From Xestospongia bergquistia (Eukaryota; Porifera; Demospongiae; Haplosclerida; Petrosiidae), in contig OZ014412.1 of the NCBI GenBank assembly GCA_963965975.1, positions 3,660,501 through 3,724,500 of the forward strand: DNA of 64,000 nucleotides. The letters run 5' to 3'. The position numbers and the translations under genes are program-made. How positions within the stretch are numbered: the first letter of the stretch is position 1; each line of letters opens with the position of its first letter. This document shows, in pieces, positions 791 through 59,604 of this stretch. The notes under the pieces were generated by a model. It made no database searches, had not been told where the DNA came from, and saw only the letters and a list, made by a program, of their open reading frames with translations.

Positions 791-3668
791 ATGGTTCTCA
801 AGGAGGTACGTACTATCATCGTCATCCTATTGTTGTGCTTTCACATTTTGGGTAAGTATAATGACAGTCTTAATATTTGTAGAGATGTTGAAGCAGAATT
901 CTATTATTTAAGATGTCGCCGCAAACACTTTAGTAGAAATAAAATCTGACTCTATGTATATTTAGAATGTTGATGTACACTTTCAGACAACAGTTTTATT
1001 AAGTGGCCATAAGAAATTAATAAGACTGTCAGTCTCACACACAAGCCAGCAAACATAGATGTATGGATGAAGTTAGAAATATAGAATTAAGGAGAGCAAT
1101 TCCAGCTTCCTTTCAATATATTTTAAAATCTATTGTACTGTTACATTGAAACATATACCACTGTAAAAATTAATTGGTTGATTTAACTAATATATGGTTA
1201 CATTACAAGTGCAAACTTATTTTTGTCAAAAAGTGAGCATAACATAATACATTAATAATATTAAACAGTGTTGTGTTTACGTTTTACATAATTATGCAAC
1301 TTGTATGAACTATATATTAAATAAATCAACCAATCAACTTTTACAGTGACTTACTACTACATTTCATTGTGTAGCTGTTGAGATTGAATTTATTCCATCT
1401 TCTAATATTGGAGTCTATCAACTAGCACATTACCAATGTTCAGTTGATCATGCTAATGTGAGTATTACTTGGTTTGTTAATGGAACAAGTTCTGCTAACA
1501 ATGATATTATCCAACTTGGTATTGTTACAAATGGAGCAGGATCATCTAACTCCAGTCTTACCATACCTGGATATCCTCAATATAACAATACAATAGTGGG
1601 ATGTAATGCATTTGGATCTGTAGATGGAAGTGGTTATTTCAACTTTGATGAATCTACTCTGAAAATACAAGGTAACACACTCTCTGATATATGTCATTAT
1701 ATCTCCTTTCATTAGGTCAACTAGCTGCTGTCAATAACTTGATATGTCATTTACAAAGTCAGTATATAAACTGTTCTTGGTCTCCGCCCTTCTCTCTGGT
1801 ATCCATACCTGGTTATATCATCAATGTTACTTATGGAGGAGAACTAGTTACACAGAACATTACATCTTCTATAACATGGCAGTACTGTCCCAGTCAATTT
1901 GGTACATATATAATTAGTGTAGCTGGTAATAACTCAGCTGGAGAAGGAGAGATAACTACTACATCAGTTGTAGTACCAGAAGGTAGGTAATGTAGTTATA
2001 TTTAATCTCTCTTCATTAACTATATATAGATGAAATTACTTCCTATAACGTGACTCCTAAAATGTTATCGAATGGTTCTTATTTGATCAGCTGTATTATA
2101 GAGGTATGTCATAACCTAAGTTATTTCAGATTCATTTCTCTCTTAGACTACATATTGTATAGTACCATCATTAATATCTCTCAAACTAACTACCAGTAAT
2201 GGAACTATATTAACATATACTGGAACAGTTACTGATATTGTTGATAATAAATTTAAAGGGAATATAAATATTGGTATAAATGGAAGACAAAAGTTGACTG
2301 TGTCTTTAAGTTTAATATATGACAATAACAACTCTTTAATGGATAGCTTACCAGCTACAATTATTTGTAAGTTAACATAATTACTTTATTTGTTATTTAC
2401 ATTCTTTTATTAGCTACATTTGATGTTCAAAATGGCAGTATAATGGTCAAATCAACCACTGGACAAGTTTGTTTTACTTGTTATTTTCTTGAGGGTAGTC
2501 AATCACAAGGATGTTATATTGAATATAACTCACTTATAACAGACTACTACAGTGGTAATATTACCATAGTGAGAACATCAGTAGATACCAGTACTGCTAG
2601 TAAATGTGTGACAGAAATATATATCAGTAACTATAATGTGACATTTTATGATATGGATTATAACAATGTACCATATACTACTGAGTATGCTGTAAAACTA
2701 ACTAATCAATTAGTGATTGGACTATCTCTTTCTTTTACTCCTACTATATCAAATGTAATAGTTACATTATCATCTCTATCACCGGTATCTAATACTCTAT
2801 GTAGAGAGTGTAATAATAGTAAGTTAATTATTTATATCATCATATATCATCATATTAATCAATTAGTTACTGGAGTTTCTCCCTTTCCCTATTCAATGAC
2901 TAATAATAGTATGTCTCCATCATCAACTACATTTTGTACAGTCTATGAAAATAGTAAGTTATTATTAATATTTTAACATTTTTAGGTAGAAGTTTACTGT
3001 AACAATTGAGTTCATATTATTACTACTACAGTGAGGAGTGTTCAAAGAGATCTAATAATAGGTAATACTAGTATGATAAGTTCTAGTCTAGTTAACTAAA
3101 TATATCACTACATATTGTAGGTAGTATTACTGGTAGTCTAGTAGGTGTGTCAGTTCTAATACTGGTATGTACTGTACTAGTACTTATAATGATATATAGG
3201 ATAAGAAGAACAAAGTCACTGAGACAAGGTACAGTTAACTACATTTTATATACACACTCTCTTATATAAGTTACTACTAGATACTGTACAACATCAAGTG
3301 ATGACTGTTATACCTCAATATGAGAATATTACTAATTACCATCATACTACTGAAGTAGAGATGACCACATGTGTTGCATATGGTATGATATAATATTGAC
3401 CAATAACATGTGTGTGTGTGTGTGTGTGTGTGTGTGTGTGTGTGTGTGTGTGTGTGTGTGTGTTTATATACATAGTATTGAGTAATGATCTCACTTGAGT
3501 ATAATATATTATTACATTGTAGGTACTGTACCATCTCCTGTTAATCCACTATCAGATACTGTCCTTCATCAAGTTATACCTCAATATGAGAATGTTGATA
3601 TGATCACTAATACACTACCTACTGCTGAACTAGTGATGACCACATGTACTGCATATGGTGTGATATAA
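791..3668 (+). CDS. g1: type I Ig-FN3 transmembrane receptor
   Basis: Predicted single-pass surface receptor of about 598 residues. Exons: 791-851 (signal peptide, MVLKEVRTIIVILLLCFHIL), 1375-1671 (Ig-like, Cys in YQCSVDH and Trp in ITWFVNG), 1716-1982 (FN3-like, CSWSPP and NNSAGEGE), 2030-2103 and 2147-2366 (D3), 2414-2818 (D4, CFTCYF), 2867-2953 (Ser/Thr-rich stalk), 3032-3061, 3121-3228 (TM then RIRRTK), 3281-3382 (tail, YENI) and 3523-3668 (tail, YENV, stop TAA). All borders are GT-AG, and most exons start and end in phase 1, which favours exon duplication. The frame is open throughout. An in-frame ATG at 740 would add 17 polar residues; 791 is preferred because it gives a normal signal peptide. 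Ligand and pathway are unknown; pYxN-type sites could recruit SH2 adaptors (inference). Confidence 0.75.
3409..3462. repeat. (TG)n microsatellite in a tail intron of g1
   Basis: About 27 uninterrupted TG units begin some 27 bases after the donor of the first tail exon. Shorter TG runs sit at the equivalent place in most other tail introns of the array. Confidence 0.95.
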
Positions 3669-3758
3669 TATTAACCAATAACAATTTGTTCGTGTGTGTT
3701 TATATATATAATATTGATTAATGATCTGACTTGAGTATAATATGTTATTACAATGTAG

Positions 3759-57516: not shown

Positions 57517-59604
57517 CTACTACTGATACTGTTAGTATCTACTATATTAAAATGTACAGGTATGATTATATTAATAACTAATGTACTATTTTATTTAGTT
57601 TTATTATATAGCTGTTCAGTTTATATTTACTCCATCTCCTAACATTGAAGTCTATCAACTAGCACATTACCAATGTTCAGTTGATCATACTGGTGTGGGT
57701 GTTACTTGGAATATAAATGGAACAAGCTATGGTCACAATGACAACATTATCCAACTTGGTGTTGTTACTAGAGGAGTACCACAACAGTCTAATCTTACCA
57801 TACCTGGATATCCTCAATATAACAATACAGTAGTGAGATGTGATGCATATGGATCAGTGATTGGTTATACCAACTTTAGTGAATCTATTCTGAGAATACA
57901 AGGTAACACACTCTCTGATATATGTCATTATATCTCCTCTCATTAGGTGAACTAGCTGCTGTTAACAACTTGATATGCCATGTACAAAGTCAGTATATAA
58001 ACTGTTCCTGGTCTCCTCCCTTCTCTCTGGTATCCATACCTGGTTATATAATCAATGTTACTTATGGAGGAGAACTAGTTACACAGAACAATACATCTTC
58101 TACAACATGGCAGTACTGTCCGAGTCAATTTGGTACATATACAATTAGTGTAGCTGGTAATAACTCAGCTGGAGAAGGAGAGATAAGTACTACATCACTA
58201 CATGTACCAGGAGGTATTATCACTATGGTTACTAATGTATAATTTATTCCTTTGATTTTAGTTAATATAAGTAATTTAACAACTACCTTTATCAGATCAG
58301 TTAATAGTTGGATACTAAATATAACAATATATGATTTGGTAAGTGACATTATGATATCTCTAGATACCTCATGTTTGTGATATTAGGAACTTCAACAATG
58401 TCCACATACAATGGAGTCAGCTCAACTAAATGTTGTTATATACAATGAAGATAATTCTTCTATATTTCTGAATAATCCAATAACTCTAACTGATGAAGGA
58501 GTTATTGTTGTTACCATCTATATTGTAAATATAACTGAGAATAAAATATGGAAGACAAGAATGACTTTATCATTACCAAGTGGAGCTGTTATTGACATAA
58601 CAGAATCAACTGTACTAAGTAAGTACATTATAAATGGCTTACAAATATTTTCTCATTCATTAGGTACATATGATATTACTGAAGGTACTTTATACAATGA
58701 CTTACGTAATATTGGTAGAATATGTTACAGCTGTCATTTTATAAGAGGAGCTATTGTTAAAGGTTGTCTTATTTCATTAATCTCCTCTACCTACAGTACT
58801 AACATATCATTGATGTGTTCTCCAGTATGTAGTAGTACAGTAATTGGATGTGCATATGATCTACCTAGTGGTATATATAATATGTATGTATATGATATTG
58901 AAGAGGAGGGTAGATTATCAGATGACTGGGCAATATCATATACTAATATCAATATTACTGGATTGGAACCAACTTACTCATTTCTTGAAGTGACTAATTC
59001 TATATCCACATGTCCTGTTTCCATGGTTACTATTGCTATTGGAACATATGACTGTTTGACCAGTAAGTAATCATTAGTACATTTGTTATCATTATTATAT
59101 CTCTATGTATGTTATATAGATGATACACAAGTTAATAAAGTGCTTACAACAACTGCTAGTATATTAGGAGGTAATAAATATGACAATAATATAAACACCA
59201 GTAGTTATATTATTATAAGTTAGTAAATAGTTAACTCTCAAAATGAAAACTGTTGTCATATAATTATATTATTATGTAGACTGTATAATGTATTACTGTA
59301 ATATCTAGGTAGTCTAGTGGGTGTGTCAGTTCTAATACTGGTATGTACTATACTAATACATATAGTGATATGTTGGATAAGAAGAACTAAGTCACTGAGA
59401 CAAGGTAATACTAGCAGTGGAGACAGTTTGTAAATGATATTATCTATTATAGGTACTGTACCATCTCCTGTTAATCCACTAACGGATACTGTCCCTCACC
59501 AAGTTATATCTCAATATGAGAATGTTGATATAATCACTAATACACTACCTACTACTGAACTAGAGATGAATACATGTGCTGCATATGGTGTGATAAAATA
59601 TTAA
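57517..59604 (+). CDS. g11: type II receptor lacking its usual start codon
   Basis: The signal exon remnant ends near 57558 (LLLILLVS-like core then KCT), but about 80 bases covering the ATG and the conserved upstream block are deleted, and the open frame upstream meets a stop before any ATG. Remaining exons are intact: 57612-57902 (Ig, VTWNING), 57947-58213 (FN3), 58262-58338 and 58387-58618 (D3), 58664-59062 (D4), 59120-59170, 59309-59404 (TM, with Ile for Val and Leu) and 59453-59604 (tail, YENV, ending AYGVIKY). These sum to a whole frame with a phase-1 first exon. It is either a recent pseudogene or uses an unseen upstream first exon. The in-frame 45-base intron is 58619-58663. Confidence 0.65.

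Follow-up and report, generated by a model that had tools for sequence, protein, structure and literature searches.

The 64-kb window analysed here (C2:3660501-3724500, where C2 is contig OZ014412.1) carries a tandem array of receptor genes with immunoglobulin (Ig) and fibronectin type III (FN3) domains. Related genes elsewhere on C2 carry nearly identical ectodomains on different cytoplasmic tails. The genome searched was one haplotype of 146,460,797 bases in 21 contigs. Translated searches of the window found eleven Ig exons, head-to-tail and all on the + strand, between positions 1377 and 57904. An FN3 exon follows ten of the eleven, and the one at 22439 is split by a frameshift. Because the window exons are 60-90% identical to those of copy 1, and because the reversed control of our Ig-exon pattern had no match in 146 Mb, an array by chance is excluded.

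An initial annotation had described eleven same-strand tandem genes or remnants of Ig-FN3 receptors with tyrosine tails. The eleven + strand Ig exons agree with this count, and spliced models and domain profiles bear out the receptor type. The array limits that it gave, 791 and 59604, proved to be gene ends, as copy 1 has its ATG at the first and copy 11 its stop at the second. It was also right that intact, decaying and truncated members lie together: three copies (3, 6 and 9) are broken, and the other eight can be read as AG/GT exon chains without an internal stop (type A copies 1, 2, 5, 8 and 10; type B copies 4, 7 and 11). Copies 5, 10 and 11 were read from the Ig exon onward with a placeholder base. 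Its claim of one common exon order held only in part. The transmembrane segment (TM) and the tyrosine tail are common to two types, A and B, but there are two ectodomain exon plans. Type A, with seven window copies (1, 2, 5, 6, 8, 9 and 10), has signal peptide (SP)-Ig-FN3-E4-E5-E6-E7-TM-T1-T2(n). Type B, with three (4, 7 and 11), has SP-Ig-FN3-B0-B1-B7-TM-T2. Copy 3 could not be typed. The models thus read as a putative signal peptide, an ectodomain, a single putative TM and a cytoplasmic tail, with signal peptide and TM assigned by eye and not by a predictor. Coordinates are given in Table 1.

Table 1. Receptor copies and isolated receptor exons in the window (window positions; "open" means without internal stop; aa, amino acids).
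Feature	Start	End	Strand	Ig exon starts near	Description
Copy 1	791	3847	+	1377	Type A, 596-aa open model; SP 791-851, Ig 1375-1671, FN3 1716-1982, E4 2030-2103, E5a 2147-2366, E6 2414-2818, E7 3032-3061, TM 3121-3228, tail 3281-3382, 3523-3657, 3759-3847
Copy 2	5697	7949	+	5818	Type A, 582-aa open model; SP 5697-5763, Ig 5816-6124, FN3 6169-6435, E4 6483-6556, E5b 6609-6819, E6 6864-7289, E7 7342-7371, TM 7431-7538, tail 7591-7692, 7798-7949
Copy 3	8911	9588	+	9023	Remnant: signal peptide, Ig 9023-9331, tail-exon piece 9463-9588; neither FN3 nor TM found
Copy 4	10262	12381	+	10384	Type B, 560-aa open model; SP 10262-10328, Ig 10382-10678, FN3 10723-10989, B0 11038-11114, B1 11163-11838, B7 11896-11946, TM 12085-12180, tail 12233-12381
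Copy 5	17587	20424	+	17992	Type A, open from Ig exon (17990) to stop; SP exon 17587-17680 inferred
Copy 6	21977	24183	+	22098	Type A, frameshift breaks FN3 exon
Copy 7	25724	27917	+	25915	Type B, 560-aa open model, different signal peptide type
Copy 8	31968	35432	+	32519	Type A, 719-aa open model; T1, then four T2 tail repeats
Copy 9	42733	44766	+	42741	Type A pseudogene: E5/E6 deletion, internal stop; signal peptide not found
Copy 10	52970	55906	+	53145	Type A, open from Ig exon (53143) to stop, three T2 repeats; SP 52970-53030 inferred, with unusual donor GTTAAT
Copy 11	57499	59604	+	57614	Type B, open from Ig exon (57612) to stop; SP exon without ATG
Solo E5/E6 ectodomain exons	4501	5028	+		4434-4960 is 99% identical to 2081-2608 of copy 1
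Solo E5/E6 ectodomain fragment	21041	21533	+

The window covers a small fraction of a cluster that spans about 1.5 Mb and has Ig exons on both strands. A 29-base DNA pattern of the Ig exon matched the genome 131 times (79 forward, 52 reverse). Among the 100 matches listed, 98 lie on C2:2,736,630-4,261,507, with one each on C9 and C14. In the contiguous test region C2:3460501-3724500 (264 kb), the same pattern recovered 34 of 35 Ig exons. Matches listed for an Ig-FN3 protein query spread along C2:2.73-4.21 Mb, with one further place on C14. A query with the YEN tail gave 202 matches, and those listed are on C2 save two on C14, three on C9 and one on C1. Genes were read individually across the 264 kb and at short loci elsewhere. 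The 35 Ig genes of this region comprise 17 of type A, seven of type B, ten of classes C and D, and one untyped. At a first look the genome held 2143 FN3 and 983 Death candidates, of which 150 each were scored; FN3 matches are dense on C5, C7 and C10.

In types A and B the tail consists of at least one repeat with the motifs PQYEN(V/I) and AYG. The tally used 42 full-length exons of 51 T2 matches and 17 of 20 T1 matches. The tyrosine and glutamate of YEN are invariant in all 42 full-length T2 exons and the asparagine is kept in 81%; the second tyrosine, in AYG, is kept in 41 of the 42. We take YxN in this tail to be a Grb2-SH2-like motif. The tail exons multiply as tandem units of 241-264 bp (window 34394-35438 and 55134-55910), and copies therefore differ in how many YEN motifs they have. 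Open window models stop after the tyrosine repeats, which leaves no cytoplasmic kinase in them; the tails themselves were not put through a family scan.

Class C genes, upstream of the window, have the same ectodomain exons with a different TM and a tail with IxYxxV, VxYxxV or SxYxxL, ending in a final exon of about 83 amino acids. The class C gene g2 gives a 710-amino-acid model without stops. This final exon was found in five genes of the 264-kb region (g1, g2, g5, g8 and g10) and is damaged in g10. Gene g3 has the class C TM and first tail exon only, and g0, g4, g6 and g7 have other short tails. The final exon probably encodes a Death domain, as its relatives suggest. A diverged neighbour scores 15.7 bits against the Pfam Death cut-off of 22.6. 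A relative at C7:7386446-7386667, 38% identical to the class C exon (E 1.6e-8), passes the cut-off with 25.7 bits. When the diverged neighbour was added to the profile, 11 of 13 PDB matches were FADD (E 0.1-1.3). A profile of four near-identical class C final exons alone matched no Death domain in PDB.

The best 76 of 146 matches to the class C final exon are all on C2:2.866-4.375 Mb, and many are fragments. Within C2:4069910-4190110 the Death-exon matches repeat at an offset of about 65.4 kb with equal scores; this is either a recent segmental duplication or an unmerged haplotype. A diverged relative at C2:3480986-3483775 has an Ig-like exon, FN3, two further domains, a TM segment and a Death-like exon. 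Since this relative also combines Ig-like and Death-like exons, the Death-tailed plan may be the older form.

Tail class is independent of Ig sequence. The nearest Ig relative belongs to the same tail class in 14 of 45 sequences (17 A, 13 B and 15 C/D, where class C lumps the short-tailed g0, g4, g6 and g7 with the Death-tailed genes), and shuffled labels gave 14.5. The test set was drawn up without g3, g10, g16, g24, g30, L010, L046 and L048. Locus L012 was assigned to class A and seven further L loci to class B from their own exons. Genes g1, g2, g5, g8, L043, L044, L045, L047, L049, L050 and L051 were called Death-tailed by the Death exon downstream, with exon chains of this class read only for g2, L051/L053 and L044/L054.

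Near-identical ectodomains on different tails, the mark of paired receptors, were found directly. Copy 1 and the Death-tailed L051/L053 (C2:3743863-3747693), 82 kb apart, are 95.6% identical over 2,430 bp. The similarity runs from upstream of the signal peptide to inside E6 (window 318-2728 against C2:3743863-3746284), and beyond window position 2728 identity drops to about 50%. Likewise, g21 of type B is 97.2% identical to the Death-tailed L044/L054 over a 600-bp Ig-FN3 unit; in L044/L054 the recognised exons are open and the TM was not recognised. Two head-to-head pairs of a type B and a class C gene are mutual nearest relatives: g34 and g2, 96.3% identical over 594 bp, and g33 and g8, 94.6% identical over 616 bp.

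We rejected head-to-head pairing as a general layout, as there are two pairs in the 264-kb region and nine other loci have no complete partner within about 1.1 kb. Exon B1 is apparently split by an intron in minus-strand type B genes (g33, C2:3573359-3572757) and continuous in the window (11163-11838); intron loss in the window type B genes is possible. We also rejected exons B2 and B3 as parts of type B genes. They are located past the tail stop and match a second diverged family. These ectodomain-like exons (window 12568-14324) recur downstream of other type B genes too. Relatives in the second family, with FN3, a B2-like exon and, in one, a Death-like exon, lie at C2:3468955-3491262.

The ectodomains had been described as variable, and we could locate the variation in loops equivalent to complementarity-determining regions. 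In 31 copies, loops BC, C'-D and FG had a synonymous divergence (dS) of 0.372 and a nonsynonymous divergence (dN) of 0.321. The corresponding values for the Ig framework were 0.176 and 0.097, and the adjacent 44-bp intron had a distance of 0.073. The loops are 4-5 times more diverged than this intron. The contrast between loops, framework and intron therefore makes the loops look old and diverse inside a homogenised frame. The FN3 exon is less variable (dS 0.133, dN 0.069; 27 genes). The 31-copy loop set was made without g3 because of its stop, without g10 and g16 because no Ig donor was found in them, and without g30, whose Ig protein is the same as that of g11; the intron set of 31 copies includes g30 and was made without g24 (no FN3). 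The FG loop is partly reassorted against BC and C'-D between copies: ten pairs of copies match in FG and differ in BC and C'-D, and three pairs show the reverse.

The fold of the ectodomain was examined with profiles and AlphaFold2 (AF2). The AF2 model of a window Ig exon, with a mean predicted local distance difference test score (pLDDT) of 77.4, is an Ig-like sandwich. Among the 50 PDB rows listed for this model, 46 are Ig-domain proteins by title and four are adaptin ears; the best E is 2.6e-3 and none is below 1e-3. The Ig profile from sequence alone is weak (titin, E 0.0028). By this model the N-terminal domain is predicted to belong to the Ig superfamily. A profile of the FN3 exon matches ROS, DCC and contactin with a best E of 7.5e-6, and a single FN3 sequence scores under the Pfam cut-off. 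The E6/B1 domain has conserved cysteines and is predicted to form an FN3-like sandwich. Its model matches mostly FN3 rows in PDB, the best being neogenin FN3 (E 8.7e-4, the sole row below 1e-3), and an E6 profile found no match among PDB sequences. Pfam scans of the ectodomain exons turned up no sushi match.

Several other features of the window were recorded. The Ig protein of copy 9 is identical to that of g11, a gene 100 kb upstream. The surrounding blocks, C2:3592782-3607526 and window 31968-46291, lie about 100 kb apart and have a common gene order as well as this identical Ig protein exon; from their sequence we read them as a segmental duplication. Broken transposase frames (window 49353-50839, - strand; HTH_psq 1.5e-9, DDE_1 9.4e-12) are of a type that we presumptively name pogo/Tigger. 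A tandem repeat at window 47638-48886 has five copies of a 249-bp unit. Scans of the window for tRNA genes and Rfam families gave no matches.

Contig C21 carries a mitochondrial cox1 with nine in-frame TGA codons. Translation table 4 keeps Arg at the cox1 AGA/AGG codons, where tables 5 and 13 would give Ser or Gly, and a tunicate mitochondrial code is therefore unlikely. The order on C21, with names taken from translations, is tRNA-Arg, a nad4L-like frame, cox1, tRNA-Ser(tga), tRNA-Asp, tRNA-Cys and a nad1-like frame. We take this code and gene order to be of the demosponge type. One TGF-beta primer (PMC2000352) and one lncRNA primer (PMC5890393) of Amphimedon queenslandica, the two that were tried, had no match in the genome, which speaks weakly against that species as host. 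Two cox1-like matches with many stops on a nuclear contig (C6:3154917-3155898 and C6:3199148-3200446) are probably mitochondrial insertions.

We propose that the cluster is a germline paired-receptor complex of a probable demosponge, in which a variable Ig-FN3 ectodomain has been joined by recombination to different signalling tails. We give this reading a probability of a little over one half (about 0.56). Copies would recombine and so place one ectodomain on a YEN repeat tail, on a longer tail with motifs like the immunoreceptor tyrosine-based inhibitory motif (ITIM) and a probable Death domain at the C-terminus, or on other short tails. The loops would bind a variable partner, carried by another cell (the likeliest case) or by microbes. 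The same ectodomain with a YEN or a Death tail would then couple a common ligand to different outputs, such as adhesion or tolerance on one side and cell death or inflammation on the other, and their balance would decide between acceptance and attack. A self/non-self role, which the initial annotation suggested for the case of a sponge host, is plausible; the cluster would suit allorecognition as well as the recognition of microbes or symbionts. The boldest form of the proposal is a 1.5-Mb sponge histocompatibility or immune locus in which a V-like domain with CDR-like loops would be diversified through germline exchange among copies and would carry interchangeable YEN/ITIM-like or Death tails, so that one specificity would exist in tolerance and killing forms. 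We consider this form doubtful.

A number of observations weigh against our proposal. The pooled loop dN/dS is 0.86 (0.78-1.00, from bootstraps over genes that ignore shared descent), which is not above 1, and the loop limits behind it follow Ig topology but were set after the alignment was seen. Only the BC loop exceeds 1 (1.97, six codons); thus positive selection is not proven. Loop reassortment is incomplete, as a weak correlation persists (Mantel r 0.138, reached in 89 of 2000 permutations). At very low dS, dN/dS is 1.01 for the TM exon and 1.15 for T1; because these whole exons are near 1, constraint is visible mainly at the tail tyrosines. The ITIM consensus fits only two of the 12 cytoplasmic tyrosines of g2, and the sole Pfam match of the class C final exon, Death (PF00531), reaches 13.9 bits and stays under the cut-off. 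In every twin pair there is at least one member that could not be verified as complete. All recognised exons are open in the twin of copy 1, but GTG stands at the position of copy 1's ATG, so it may be dead or start elsewhere. Gene g21 has one stop in B1. Gene g2 is complete, and B1 of its partner g34 went unrecognised over its first half. In the pair of g33 and g8, stops in B1 of g33 may belong to an intron, and g8 is interrupted by a stop in E6 and has its tail exon split. Within about 1.1 kb upstream of nine further Death-class genes we found one Ig fragment and no complete partner.

The most serious competitor is that these are immune receptors for microbes or symbionts and not for conspecifics, with loops that diversify against pathogens or select symbionts and a Death tail that triggers inflammation or cell death. 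We regard it as quite possible, if short of an even chance. Its attraction is that the same genomic pattern of loops, tail independence and clustering fits, and the genome has many Death candidates (983 at first look, 150 scored). A Dysidea avara gene with Ig domains and a CARD, which is also a death-fold domain, rises after exposure to microbial patterns, according to the relevant passages of PMC6208332. Nothing specific speaks against it; any recognition system with opposed outputs could make use of one ectodomain joined to different tails. Ordinary adhesion or guidance receptors, expanded in tandem and with variation that is neutral or serves cell identity within the body, are an unlikely explanation. 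The Ig-FN3 order, the resemblance of FN3 to DCC, contactin and ROS, and a dN/dS below 1 in Ig overall, C'-D, FG, framework, FN3, E5 and E6 would suit such receptors. However, variation that is concentrated in loops beside a conserved framework and a nearly invariant adjacent intron argues against them, as do the partial loop reassortment and the remnants beside open copies.

The cluster might also be a mostly dead expansion homogenised by recombination, with few expressed genes and with Death-tailed forms that are perhaps relics. Three of the 11 window copies are indeed broken, stops occur in four of 26 E6 and five of eight B1 exons tested (one B1 probably being an unrecognised intron), the twin of copy 1 lacks a start codon, and many of the best 76 Death-exon matches on C2 are fragments. 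However, eight window copies and the Death-tailed g2 have stop-free splice chains, and the tail tyrosines are kept in 42/42 and 41/42 exons; we give this explanation little credence. An assembly artefact, in which unmerged haplotypes or chimaeric joins inflate the copy number and create the twins, is very improbable. Matches repeated about 65.4 kb apart at C2:4.07-4.19 Mb might be an instance of this, but the twins differ by 1-7% in Ig protein and carry different tails, and the classes alternate over 264 kb of contiguous, N-free sequence.

Vertebrate paired receptors (CD300, FcR-like and KIR/LILR) resemble the proposed complex in that similar ectodomains sit on opposed tails. In vertebrates the second partner works through an adaptor with an immunoreceptor tyrosine-based activation motif (ITAM), whereas the second sponge partner would be a Death-tailed protein; we assume an independent origin. 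CD300A and CD300C, as summarised in PMC12447643, have common ligands and opposing effects.

In design the nearest known systems are Alr and FcoR. The Alr family of the Hydractinia allorecognition complex, a cnidarian system, is described in part of PMC12065747 as having ITIM and ITAM-type tail motifs, and the relevant section of PMC11067881 gives at least 41 loci. The sponge cluster differs in its single Ig with FN3 and FN3-like domains, its alternative, probably Death-type tail and its 131 Ig-exon matches; we liken the two by design. For the fuhc locus of Botryllus, the passages of PMC12065747 concerned count 53 loci for FcoR and more than 37 new ones for fester. Fester and FcoR are like the sponge genes in being variable Ig receptors in one locus with ITIM or other tyrosine tails, and in FcoR the signalling motif can change while the ectodomain partner stays (PMC12065747, same passages). 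FcoRs have V-type Ig, sushi and C2 Ig domains, and those passages mention no Death domain (PMC12065747); here too the likeness is one of design. The mitochondrial code of our host is probably not that of tunicates.

To our knowledge, no tissue-recognition receptors of sponges are known beyond the aggregation factor. Sponge Ig-TIR receptors and an Ig and CARD gene join, as class C does, an Ig ectodomain to an intracellular adaptor-type domain, and the pages of PMC6208332 on them count one and two Ig-TIR genes in two sponge species. The Geodia Ig adhesion molecule, outlined in part of PMC11999971, is likewise a sponge protein with an Ig ectodomain. Neither of these accounts, in the parts that treat known sponge Ig receptors, describes a comparable cluster or tail exchange (PMC6208332, PMC11999971), and we recognised no published description of such a cluster in the sections of the open-access literature searched. 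The new element is one variable ectodomain paired with different tails.

The locus supplies gene models, exon limits and testable predictions for the study of sponge recognition. If the paired-receptor reading is true, the logic of vertebrate paired receptors would be present in a sponge, with a Death-type tail as the opposing output. Loop diversity could then be held in the germline through exchange between copies, and a paired-receptor system would exist in an early animal lineage.

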